Shown here in pieces: positions 27,698 through 30,187 of a stretch of DNA of 64,000 nt. This stretch comes from Fervidobacterium changbaicum (GTDB lineage Bacteria > Thermotogota > Thermotogae > Thermotogales > Fervidobacteriaceae), in contig NZ_CP026721.1 in assembly GCF_004117075.1 (NCBI RefSeq), positions 186,001-250,000 on the forward strand, given 5' to 3'. The translations under genes were made by a program, and so were the position numbers. The first letter of the stretch is position 1. Each line of letters starts with the position of its first letter. The notes below the pieces were generated by a model, which saw only the letters and a list, made by a program, of their open reading frames with translations, searched no databases and was not told the origin of the DNA.

Positions 27698-27760
27698 AGA
27701 GATGTTTTTTCACAGCTTTACATTGTTTGCCAAGAACTCTTTGTGTATTTTTTGTTTAAT

Positions 27761-27789
27761 TTGACAAATTATTTGGAAAGTGGTACAAT
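27761..27789 (+). promoter_or_regulatory. Promoter of the DUF2089/bactofilin-like operon
   Basis: Consensus TTGACA (27761-27766), exactly 17 bp, then TACAAT (27784-27789), 20 bp ahead of GTG 27810. It is one of the best promoters in the window, and its short leader leaves little room for other control. Confidence 0.75.
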
Positions 27790-27809
27790 AATTTTGGGAG
27801 GTGAAATCC

Positions 27810-28208
27810 GTGGCTAAGATGTTACCAAGGTGTCCAGTATGTGGAAAGCCGATGAAAGTAATTCAGTTAAGATGTGACGATGATGGTGTGACCGTTAGTG
27901 GTTCATTTGAAGCGCCTTCGTTTGCTTATCTCGATGAAGAAGATACGAGGTTTATTATGATGTTCTTGAGAACAAAAGGAAACTTAAAAGAAATGGAAAG
28001 ACTCACTGGGATTGGTTACTTTGCACTTAGAGGAAGACTCGACAAAGTTTTGGAAAAGATGGGACTTACACCTATTGAGGAAGATGAAGAGCAGGTTGAC
28101 TCCAACGATGTCTACAAGCTACTTAAAGAAAAGAAGATCACGGTTGAAGAAGCTATTGCTCTTTTGAAAAAGAAGAGAGGTGAAACCGATGGGAGAACTT
28201 CCGAATGA
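27810..28208 (+). CDS. DUF2089 family protein (zinc-ribbon plus helix-turn-helix-like)
   Basis: A 132-residue cytoplasmic protein. An N-terminal zinc-knuckle PRCPVCGKPMKVIQLRCD is followed by a family core (GSFEAPSFAYLDEEDTRFIMMFLRTKGNLKEMERLTGIGYFALRGRLDKVLEKMG) that looks like a DNA-binding helix-turn-helix. The C-terminus is a small helical hairpin (VYKLLKEKKITVEEAIALLKKK). The same hairpin type opens the next two genes. It may regulate this envelope-related operon (inference). GTG 27810 is set by GGGAGGTG at 27797-27804. Confidence 0.8.
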   Translation: MAKMLPRCPVCGKPMKVIQLRCDDDGVTVSGSFEAPSFAYLDEEDTRFIMMFLRTKGNLKEMERLTGIGYFALRGRLDKVLEKMGLTPIEEDEEQVDSNDVYKLLKEKKITVEEAIALLKKKRGETDGRTSE

Positions 28209-28686
28209 TATCTTAGCGGTTCTGGAAGCTCTTTCGCGAAAAGAAATAACGGTTGATGAAGCAGAACAACTCATCCAGGCTGTTATGGAGAAAAGAATGA
28301 ACAAAAATGTGAGGAAACAGAGAACGTACATCGGTAGAGAATTTATGATAAATCCCGGTGAAGAGTACGTTGGAACAGTTGAAGTAGTGAACGGAAAAGC
28401 AGTTATAAACGGAAGACTTGTTGGAGACCTTGAAGTGGTTTTCGGCGAACTGATCTTTTCTGGTGAAGTAACCGGGAATGTAGAACTCGTTGGCACAAAT
28501 ATTGTGTGGAATGGGGGGCGCATCGGACGTAACCTTGAGATGGTAGGTTGCTCATACAAAGGTACAAGACCCACAGTGGATGGAAAGGTAAACGAAGTGA
28601 ATAACTTCTTCATAAACGGTATACTTGGAATGGTGCGCAATCTCATAATTAAACCTTTTTTACACGGCATAAGGATTGAAGAATGA
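28189..28686 (+). CDS. Bactofilin-like (polymer-forming) protein with N-terminal SHOCT-like hairpin
   Basis: A 165-residue protein. Residues about 5-35 are a helical hairpin (ILAVLEALSRKEITVDEAEQLIQAVMEK). Residues about 55-150 carry short beta-helix rungs (VGTVEVVNGKAVINGRLVGDLEVVFGELIFSGEVTGNVELVGTNIVWNGGRIGRNLEM), as in bactofilins and the polymer-forming cytoskeletal family. It overlaps the DUF2089 stop by 20 bp. ATG 28189 follows GAGAGGTG. The role is inferred to be a scaffold or membrane-surface polymer. Confidence 0.72.
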   Translation: MGELPNDILAVLEALSRKEITVDEAEQLIQAVMEKRMNKNVRKQRTYIGREFMINPGEEYVGTVEVVNGKAVINGRLVGDLEVVFGELIFSGEVTGNVELVGTNIVWNGGRIGRNLEMVGCSYKGTRPTVDGKVNEVNNFFINGILGMVRNLIIKPFLHGIRIEE

Positions 28687-28712
28687 CCTTTACCAAAAGG
28701 TGGTGAAAAACT

Positions 28713-29792
28713 ATGGATAGATCGGAACTAAGGAGAGTACTGGAGGCTGTCGAGAGTGGAGAGATAACCCCCCAGGATGCCGAAAAACTGATAGAGGCGC
28801 TCTATGAGAAAGAGATTGGAGATAAATACGATGCAGAAGATTTTGTAGAGATAACAAAGGAAATTCTGGAAGGTGAAGAACTAAACAAAAGCATATCTAT
28901 GACTAACGGAAAGCTTGTGATCAAAGGTAAGGTCAAAGGTGATGTTTCAGTGGTAAACAGCGTTGTCGAAATCCAAGGGATCATAAACGGGAATCTAAAT
29001 GCTGTGAGGTCCAAAATAATCTGGGCTGGAGGTCAAGTTGACGGAGATGTAAACTTAATACTTTCAAAAGAGGAAGGCACTCCAAACGTCGTTGGAAAAC
29101 ATAACATCGTGTCTTTTGATATCCCATTAGTTAATAAGCTATTCGCCGATAAAGTCAAGCTTCAGTCCGAGAGAGAAATATTCATCGATGGCGAGCACAA
29201 GATAGATTCTCTCAAAAAAGAAAAAGTAATTGTTAACGGAAGACTTTCTGCTCTCTCCATTGAATGCGAAAATCTTATCTTAACAGGCTCACTTACCGTT
29301 AACAATTTACAAGCAGAGAGCGTGGTCGTCTCAAAAAGTGGTATACTAAATGCAGAACATGTTGAACTTGAACGTCTCGTGAATAGCGGTAACTGTAATG
29401 TTGGAGTCTTAGAAGCTGAGGAAATTACCAATATGGGGAGCATTGAAGCAAAGGAAGTAGAGTCTGAAAGAATAGAGAACTCAGGAAGAATGAAGGTCAA
29501 AAGCATTACCGGTGAAACTATGGAAAACAAAGGAGAAACAGAATGTCAAGACATCAAACTCGAATCAGTTGAAAATACAGGCTTGATGATAATTGAAACG
29601 GCGAAATTGGAAGTGATCGATAACACCGGCGAAATAAAGGTAAATTTATTAAGGGCGGAAACAATTTATAACACAGGTACGATAAGTGTACAAGCACTGG
29701 AAACTGACTTCTTGAAAAACAAAGGTAAGGTCAGTGCTAAATTGTTCAATTGCAGAGAGCTCGAAGGAAATCCTGTAACCAAGTTGGATTAA
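28713..29792 (+). CDS. Larger bactofilin-like beta-helix protein with N-terminal SHOCT-like hairpin
   Basis: A 359-residue protein. The N-terminal hairpin (LRRVLEAVESGEITPQDAEKLIEALYEK) is closely related to that of the preceding gene. A bactofilin-like rung region (LVIKGKVKGDVSVVNSVVEIQGIINGNLNAVRSKIIWAGGQVDGDVNL) follows. From about 190 to the end, the chain is a long series of short repeats of the form [V/I]-x-N-x-G-x-[I/V/M]-x-[V/A]-x-x-[L/I]-x-x-[E/D], such as VENTGLMIIETAKLE and IYNTGTISVQALE. This predicts an extended right-handed beta-helix. No signal peptide. RBS AAAAGGTGG. Confidence 0.72.
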   Translation: MDRSELRRVLEAVESGEITPQDAEKLIEALYEKEIGDKYDAEDFVEITKEILEGEELNKSISMTNGKLVIKGKVKGDVSVVNSVVEIQGIINGNLNAVRSKIIWAGGQVDGDVNLILSKEEGTPNVVGKHNIVSFDIPLVNKLFADKVKLQSEREIFIDGEHKIDSLKKEKVIVNGRLSALSIECENLILTGSLTVNNLQAESVVVSKSGILNAEHVELERLVNSGNCNVGVLEAEEITNMGSIEAKEVESERIENSGRMKVKSITGETMENKGETECQDIKLESVENTGLMIIETAKLEVIDNTGEIKVNLLRAETIYNTGTISVQALETDFLKNKGKVSAKLFNCRELEGNPVTKLD

Positions 29793-29823
29793 ATGTACGA
29801 AACTCAGAAAGGGGTGTGGTATT

Positions 29824-30126
29824 GTGTTTTGGGGTGTGATACTTTTCACGGCAGGTGTGTTCATTCTCTTGAGTGTCGTCCTATCTGTAACTTCTCCGGT
29901 TTGGTTAGTCTTCGGCGCAATAGCGCTTGTTGGTGGTATCGTTAGCATGATAAAGAGTTTTCCCAACGGCCTTGGACTCTCGATTTTAGGTGGATTAATC
30001 ATCACCCAAGCTTTAGGTTACATAAAGATGGGATTTTGGGAGTTCGTCGTAGCAATTATTGCAGCAGGATTAATAGAAATAGGTTTGAAACTCATGGTTG
30101 CAAGTCATAGAAAGGAAAATTGGTAG
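29824..30126 (+). CDS. Small membrane protein, LiaI/LiaF-like
   Basis: A 100-residue protein of about four hydrophobic helices (about 3-21, 25-43, 50-65, 70-90) ending in a basic tail (HRKENW). The paired-helix pattern VFILLSVVLSV ... VWLVFGAIALVGGIVSMI resembles the membrane half of LiaI/LiaF or DUF5668-type envelope-stress proteins. Its place after two bactofilin-like genes suggests a membrane anchor for them (inference). GTG 29824 after AAAGGGGTG. Confidence 0.6.
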   Translation: MFWGVILFTAGVFILLSVVLSVTSPVWLVFGAIALVGGIVSMIKSFPNGLGLSILGGLIITQALGYIKMGFWEFVVAIIAAGLIEIGLKLMVASHRKENW

Positions 30127-30150
30127 CACACAATGAGTCAGTGATGGATA

Positions 30151-30187
30151 AACTAAGCGGGGCTACTTATCTACCCCGCTTAGTTTT
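30151..30187. terminator. Bidirectional terminator between the bactofilin operon and guaB
   Basis: Twelve-base arms AACTAAGCGGGG (30151-30162) and CCCCGCTTAGTT (30174-30185) with an 11-base loop are followed by T-rich sequence on the right. A-rich bases precede it for the minus direction. Confidence 0.88.

Follow-up and report, generated by a model that had tools for sequence, protein, structure and literature searches.

Within a 64,000-nucleotide stretch of DNA from the heat-loving bacterium Fervidobacterium changbaicum (contig NZ_CP026721.1, positions 186,001 to 250,000; hereafter the window), we analyzed an operon of four genes, P1 to P4, made up of a DUF2089 regulator, two proteins that join a SHOCT-like hairpin to a solenoid, and a LiaF-TM-like membrane protein (Table 1). 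P1 and P2 overlap by 20 bp, and gaps of 26 and 31 bp separate P2 from P3 and P3 from P4, respectively. Reading of the translations identified the flanking genes as a divergent hfq/hflX pair upstream and a convergent guaB downstream. A first-pass annotation of this DNA had proposed that a consensus promoter and a terminator enclose exactly these four genes, and this proposal held. The promoter is kept in all nine loci of the genus and its sister genus, where the surrounding sequence is unalignable, and a promoter scan detected no further promoter-like site on the plus strand within the four genes. The terminator-like hairpin downstream of P4 has a loop of 11 nt, because of which an automatic terminator scan passed it over, and a short T tract (z = −3.2 for a 96-nt region). 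The four genes form a self-contained operon.

Table 1. Features of the operon and of sequences compared with it. Positions are those of the window unless a genome contig or a locus is named.
Feature	Position	Strand	Remarks
Three operator-like boxes CAAATATTTTG	27744-27755, 27765-27776, 27786-27797	+	21 bp spacing
Promoter	27761-27789	+	TTGACA-17-TACAAT, extended -10 (TG)
P1 (DUF2089 regulator)	27810-28208	+	Zinc ribbon, HTH, C-terminal SHOCT-like hairpin; start GTG at 27810
Zinc ribbon of P1	27831-27884	+	CxxC...CxxC, fourth Cys replaced by Asp
SHOCT-like hairpin of P1, residues 103-125	28116-28184	+	PF22746, 21.8 bits (below cut-off)
P2	28189-28686	+	SHOCT-like hairpin, bactofilin-like beta-solenoid, hydrophobic C-terminal helix (predicted)
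SHOCT-like hairpin of P2, residues 8-35	28210-28293	+	PF22746, 18.2 bits (below cut-off)
Beta-solenoid of P2, residues 44-137	28318-28599	+	Model, pLDDT >90 over most
Conserved hydrophobic C-terminal segment of P2, NFFINGILGMVRNLIIKPFLHGI	28603-28683	+	Alignment and hydrophobicity; low model confidence
P3	28713-29792	+	SHOCT-like hairpin, bactofilin-like solenoid, long second solenoid
SHOCT-like hairpin of P3, residues 5-34	28725-28814	+	PF22746, 30.0 bits (above cut-off)
First solenoid of P3, residues 41-133	28833-29111	+	Rungs of ~17-18 residues
Second solenoid of P3, residues 155-352	29175-29768	+	12 rungs of exactly 16 residues, pLDDT >90
P4	29824-30126	+	LiaI/LiaF-TM-like membrane protein, four helices
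Terminator-like hairpin	30150-30186	+	13-bp stem, between the operon and convergent guaB
GlgC/GlgD-like matches to the bactofilin model (L190)	Genome contig 1782358-1782534 and 1783515-1783691
Small SHOCT-like proteins at other loci	L112:3804-4175, L121:1227-1583, L106:4151-4528

The first-pass annotation named the regulator correctly, and its reading of the membrane protein was supported. P1 matches the helix-turn-helix (HTH) and zinc-ribbon models of DUF2089 above their cut-offs (PF09862, 65.3 bits, and PF22747, 44.1 bits), and the named loci closest to it by DUF2089 come from Fervidobacterium metagenome-assembled genomes (77-80% identity). The loss of the fourth zinc-ribbon cysteine is shared with its relatives linked to SHOCT-bactofilin proteins, in which Asp (His in one case) takes the same place, while nearly all Toastrack-type and Chloroflexota DUF2089 proteins keep the four cysteines; a four-cysteine ribbon is not demanded by the Pfam cut-off of DUF2089. 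We know of no tested function for this family. P4, which had been described as LiaI-like, aligns with positions 1-97 of the 98 of the LiaF-TM model PF22570 at 24.9 bits (cut-off 27), and its ortholog in the same genus (L090) exceeds the cut-off with 28.9 bits. A search of NCBIfam yielded nothing above cut-off.

The first-pass annotation had also pointed to one short helical hairpin that ends P1 and begins P2 and P3. All three proteins match a known Pfam domain, SHOCT-like_DUF2089-C (PF22746, curated cut-off 27 bits), at precisely those places. The pattern it had written for the hairpin was right in part. The core, [IV][TS]x[EQD][ED]AxxL[IL], occurs three times in the six frames of the window, once each in P1, P2 and P3, against 0.01 matches expected in residue-shuffled open reading frames (ORFs), but the full pattern, in which six residues separate the first L from [KE], has no match as written, because its spacing is off and only the core is correct. 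Throughout the 2.27 Mb genome, the three best matches to PF22746 are P1, P2 and P3, and the next ones follow at E-values of 0.5 and 0.7. Moreover, a profile built solely from the DUF2089 C-termini of other genomes placed P3 and P2 ahead of all other ORFs outside DUF2089 among the 650 scanned in the window. The comparison with SHOCT and DUF2089 C-terminal models that had been suggested as a check came out in favor of the shared hairpin. The curated cut-off is exceeded by some homologs of P1 and by single-copy homologs of P2 and P3, and the domain was matched by 16 of the 18 SHOCT-bactofilin proteins and 7 of the 9 DUF2089 proteins compared. These results support the assignment of the three hairpins to one domain family. 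AlphaFold models, built with 18 sequences for P3 and 15 for P2, contain a two-helix hairpin at residues 3-14 and 20-35 of P3 and 6-16 and 22-39 of P2; its confidence is lower than elsewhere (block pLDDT, the predicted local distance difference test, of 47-72 in P3 and 64-90 in P2), and its orientation relative to the solenoid is not fixed (pTM 0.57).

In both models the hairpin is followed by beta-solenoid rungs (mean pLDDT 85.8 for P3 and 79.8 for P2). The long repeat beta-helix that had been noticed in the third protein is borne out by the second solenoid of P3, which shows autocorrelation peaks at 16 and 32 and bears NTG motifs. The C-terminal segment of P2, NFFINGILGMVRNLIIKPFLHGI, is possibly a membrane-facing helix or cap. 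The description of P2 and P3 as bactofilin-like stood in part: both proteins were modelled as solenoids and homologs pass the cut-off of the Bactofilin model (PF04519, 27.9 bits), but P2 and P3 themselves do not. The homologs that pass it are L132, L134, L135, L136 and L139, and in three of these a single protein encoded beside DUF2089 exceeds the cut-offs of both the Bactofilin and the SHOCT-like models, with 33.8 and 29.5 bits, respectively, in L139 (Dictyoglomota), 33.2 and 28.9 bits in L132 (Thermosipho), and 29.1 and 31.5 bits in L136 (Thermotogaceae). Overall, 12 of the 18 SHOCT-bactofilin proteins match the Bactofilin model (best E-value 9.7e-11), and none of the 18 matches Toastrack (DUF4097, PF13349) at an E-value of 0.01; the whole F. 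changbaicum genome holds no match to Toastrack at an E-value of 10.

Several results weigh against a bactofilin label for P2 and P3. Their scores are 13.5 and 23.5 bits, respectively, and in this genome the same model gives 25.3 and 18.1 bits for the beta-helices of two neighboring GlgC/GlgD-like nucleotidyltransferases. Foldseek returned no significant match in the PDB for either model, solved bactofilins appearing for P2 alone and as weak matches (6ria at rank 21, TMt 0.36), and a PDB profile search with the SHOCT-bactofilin family found no chain. The two nucleotidyltransferase matches were rejected as bactofilins; because such beta-helices score alike, a bactofilin score below the cut-off is weak evidence when taken alone, and a GlgC/GlgD-like beta-helix that scores near P3 calls for caution in bactofilin annotation. 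As Foldseek gave no significant match, the type of solenoid is judged from the sequence profiles. The bactofilin label is firm for the homologs and sub-threshold here, and we therefore refer to P2 and P3 as bactofilin-like rather than as proven bactofilins.

To place the operon among its relatives, we collected 49 loci by a DUF2089 alignment search; a search for related loci with P3 alone found none. DUF2089 is present in 98 of 101 sampled Thermotogota genomes, and its companions divide by family. SHOCT-bactofilin proteins occur in all 33 genomes of two families (f1 and f3) and in none of the 68 others, whereas Toastrack proteins above cut-off occur in 66 of those 68 and in only one of the 33. 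This sole exception, a member of the Thermotogaceae (G034), has both systems at separate loci, L098 (C16) and L111 (C27), each beside its own DUF2089 and each DUF2089 in its own clade, and it is possibly an intermediate of the exchange. Fervidobacteriaceae, Thermotogaceae and Dictyoglomota all keep the order DUF2089 followed by SHOCT-bactofilin. Fervidobacterium and its sister genus have DUF2089, a short and a long SHOCT-bactofilin protein and LiaF-TM, in this order; in Thermosipho-like genera and Thermotogaceae, DUF2089 and SHOCT-bactofilin are followed by a major facilitator superfamily (MFS) transporter and/or an ATP-binding cassette (ABC) ATPase and permease. In the other families the companions of DUF2089 are Toastrack and membrane proteins that are small or have four helices, joined in some cases by a small SHOCT-like protein; in L105, the Toastrack protein beside DUF2089 has at its C-terminus a SHOCT-like domain that exceeds the cut-off with 29.2 bits. 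In the tree, the DUF2089 proteins linked to SHOCT-bactofilin and those of two Dictyoglomota-type loci lie on one side of a branch with support 99/97. Because of the split by family, the DUF2089 clade of its own and the separate clades in G034, the SHOCT-bactofilin cassette constitutes a distinct subsystem whose members are inherited together. These results show that a bactofilin-like solenoid has been exchanged with Toastrack across lineages, with the same regulator alongside. The exchange is near-perfect, and therefore both beta-solenoids presumably do the same job in that position, which would link bactofilin-like proteins to envelope-stress modules. P2 and P3 themselves separate cleanly into two clades (98/98 and 100/99), whose parallel course through the genus and its sister genus suggests that an old tandem duplication gave rise to the pair.

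Three operator-like boxes, CAAATATTTTG, occupy the promoter of the operon, one upstream of the -35 element, one in the spacer and one over the -10 and start region. None of 200 shuffles was equally good; the box consensus was chosen by eye from the same loci, and because this makes the shuffle test partly circular, the genome-wide uniqueness of the boxes is the stronger evidence. In this genome boxes 2 and 3 together occur here only, besides one site with 3 mismatches. The spacing of 20-22 bp is found in all nine loci of the genus and sister genus, in most Thermotogaceae loci and in two Dictyoglomota-type loci. Moreover, the paired box AAATATTTNG-N8-12-AAAATATTTT occurs exactly once in each of 8 of 10 Thermotogaceae genomes, always before DUF2089 (~130-160 bp ahead of its HTH) and nowhere else, and the reversed control pattern gave no match in the same ten genomes. 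A box pattern with fixed spacing and mismatches missed known sites in relatives that the variable-spacing pattern found, and was uninformative. An inverted repeat over the -35 element, TTTGT(C/T)N6GACAAA, was also considered as the operator and dropped, as the direct boxes phased at 21 bp fit the conserved bases better. At promoters of Toastrack-type DUF2089 genes the box search was mostly no better than shuffles, with three or four marginal cases.

A paired box that occurs once per genome and always before DUF2089 implies dedicated autoregulation. The boxes thus resemble a dedicated autoregulatory operator, through which the regulator seems to act on the promoter of its own gene, and P1, as the sole HTH protein of the cassette, would be the obvious candidate to read them. 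Two points speak against this: the Thermosipho relatives mostly lack clear boxes, and a factor other than P1 could recognize the boxes. If P1 is the reader, the phased, operon-specific boxes are the predicted DNA target of DUF2089, whose role becomes directly testable.

The comparison with YvlB/LiaX-type systems made in the first-pass annotation proved apt, as a DUF2089 protein with a C-terminal SHOCT-like domain had already been described there (PMC11237479) and P4 is LiaF-TM-like. Ravi et al. (2024; PMC11237479) described DUF2089 as a zinc ribbon-HTH-SHOCT-like protein encoded with Toastrack and LiaI-LiaF-TM in a context of four genes, for which they suggested a role in stress signalling linked to the membrane. 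Our operon likewise unites DUF2089, a solenoid partner and a LiaF-TM membrane protein, but a bactofilin-like solenoid preceded by a SHOCT-like domain takes the place of Toastrack, and the operon has the tandem P2/P3 pair and, in P3, a second solenoid with a 16-residue repeat. In LiaX, the alpha-helical N-terminal part binds antimicrobials and the beta-rich C-terminal part inhibits LiaFSR (PMC10269926), and YvlB interacts with PspA and LiaH (PMC9239133). Like P2 and P3, YvlB and LiaX begin with an alpha-helical, SHOCT-like part and continue as a beta-rich scaffold; their operons, yvlABCD and liaXYZ, also encode small membrane proteins, and both proteins are tied to cell-envelope stress. Unlike P2 and P3, their beta part is Toastrack; their operons include PspC (YvlC), with no DUF2089 gene described, and LiaX signals via the LiaFSR system, unlike the operon studied here. 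With bactofilins (PF04519; BacA and the Thermus bactofilin) P2 and P3 share a short-rung beta-solenoid, as modelled, but they differ in their N-terminal SHOCT-like hairpin and in having a regulator in the operon, and they are known here from sequence and models. P4 resembles LiaI/LiaF in that it matches the model of their transmembrane domain over its full length, and differs as a stand-alone four-helix protein without Toastrack, 2 bits under the cut-off.

These comparisons support placing the operon with the YvlB/LiaX/LiaF envelope-stress gene contexts linked to the phage shock protein (PSP) response, and most plausibly it works like the LiaX/YvlB systems. Judged by its sequences, it belongs to the DUF2089 context yet lies outside the Toastrack family. 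The hairpin as a Pfam domain and the Toastrack-type DUF2089 context were already known from publications. The word bactofilin is absent from the main text of Ravi et al. (2024; PMC11237479), and bactofilin together with SHOCT, phage shock or DUF4097 was not found in the literature we searched, which comprised texts other than supplementary tables. As far as this literature shows, the replacement of Toastrack by a bactofilin-like protein and the operon-specific boxes are new.

We consider it probable, with appreciable room for doubt, that the operon regulates itself and serves as a membrane-associated envelope-stress module of the DUF2089/LiaF-TM kind, in which a bactofilin-like, SHOCT-like solenoid scaffold replaces Toastrack. 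In such a module, P1 would bind the three phased CAAATATTTTG boxes over its own promoter through its zinc ribbon-HTH part and hold the operon low. P2 and P3 would assemble as beta-solenoid platforms at the inner face of the membrane together with the four-helix P4, and the SHOCT-like hairpins of P1, P2 and P3 would dock regulator and scaffolds on each other, by a predicted mutual binding, or on one membrane site. A changed envelope state, the presumed signal and inducer of the operon, would then alter the assembly, move P1 between membrane or scaffold and DNA, and so adjust the expression of the cassette. Relatives without P4 have MFS or ABC exporters after the cassette. A more specific version seems unlikely to us: that a polymerising bactofilin-like scaffold captures its own transcription regulator via matching SHOCT-like hairpins, so that the state of a membrane polymer sets transcription without kinase or sigma factor, DUF2089 being a dedicated autorepressor that the scaffold either captures or sets free.

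The strongest competitor, to which we grant somewhat less than an even chance, is that the SHOCT-like hairpins are independent membrane anchors that tether each protein to the inner leaflet, with no specific docking between regulator and scaffold. SHOCT-like domains have been proposed as membrane-proximal assembly or anchoring modules for sub-membrane complexes (Ravi et al., 2024; PMC11237479), so that anchoring is itself a published prediction. The domain is joined at either end to partners as diverse as HTH, Toastrack, bactofilin and small proteins, and P2 carries an extra conserved hydrophobic segment at its C-terminus. However, the presence of three copies in adjacent genes, with none of comparable score elsewhere in the genome, suggests a shared partner, as does the co-inheritance of regulator and scaffold clades; generic anchoring needs no such pairing.

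Bactofilins are polymer-forming scaffolds, and the bactofilin-like matches of two thirds of the family would also suit P2 and P3 as ordinary cytoskeletal bactofilins, scaffolds of cell shape or wall synthesis whose level P1 merely sets, with no stress sensing. We regard this as rather doubtful, since the position and companions of the genes fit the Toastrack/LiaF-TM stress contexts, where the family replaces Toastrack almost one for one, and since MFS or ABC exporters come next in relatives; moreover, the SHOCT-like domain is not described as part of cytoskeletal bactofilins (no co-mention in the searched literature). It is quite improbable that the solenoids are very diverged Toastrack domains, in which case there would have been no exchange. 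Both folds are beta-helices in the same gene position and the NTG motifs of the second solenoid of P3 recall the SGD repeats of Toastrack, but the absence of DUF4097 matches from the 18 members and the genome, the five members that pass the bactofilin cut-off, and the co-occurrence of both types in G034, each with its own DUF2089 clade, stand against it. Chance or convergence among charged amphipathic helices is hardly credible as the source of the shared motif, short (~25 residues) as it is and with the scores of P1 and P2 under the curated cut-off, given the excess of core matches in the window, an independent profile that ranked exactly these ORFs first, and the matches to PF22746 across both protein families.

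The related loci provided some further observations. Some Thermotogaceae encode, after the first bactofilin-like protein, another one that lacks a SHOCT-like domain (L135:5309-6091, 29.6 bits and above cut-off; L136:5319-6101). Proteins of ~120 aa with an N-terminal SHOCT-like hairpin and an unassigned C-terminal part are encoded at or near other Thermotogota DUF2089 loci (Table 1). In another member of the Thermotogaceae (G035, C1:358975-359464), the reading frame of the SHOCT-bactofilin gene is broken into two that overlap, by a frameshift or an assembly error. Finally, the ABC ATPase that follows the cassette is DrrA-like, and exporters were located at L132 5269-8260, L138 5305-6988 and L136 6123-7801; the MFS and ABC exporters after the cassette in Thermosipho and Thermotogaceae are candidate outputs of the module.

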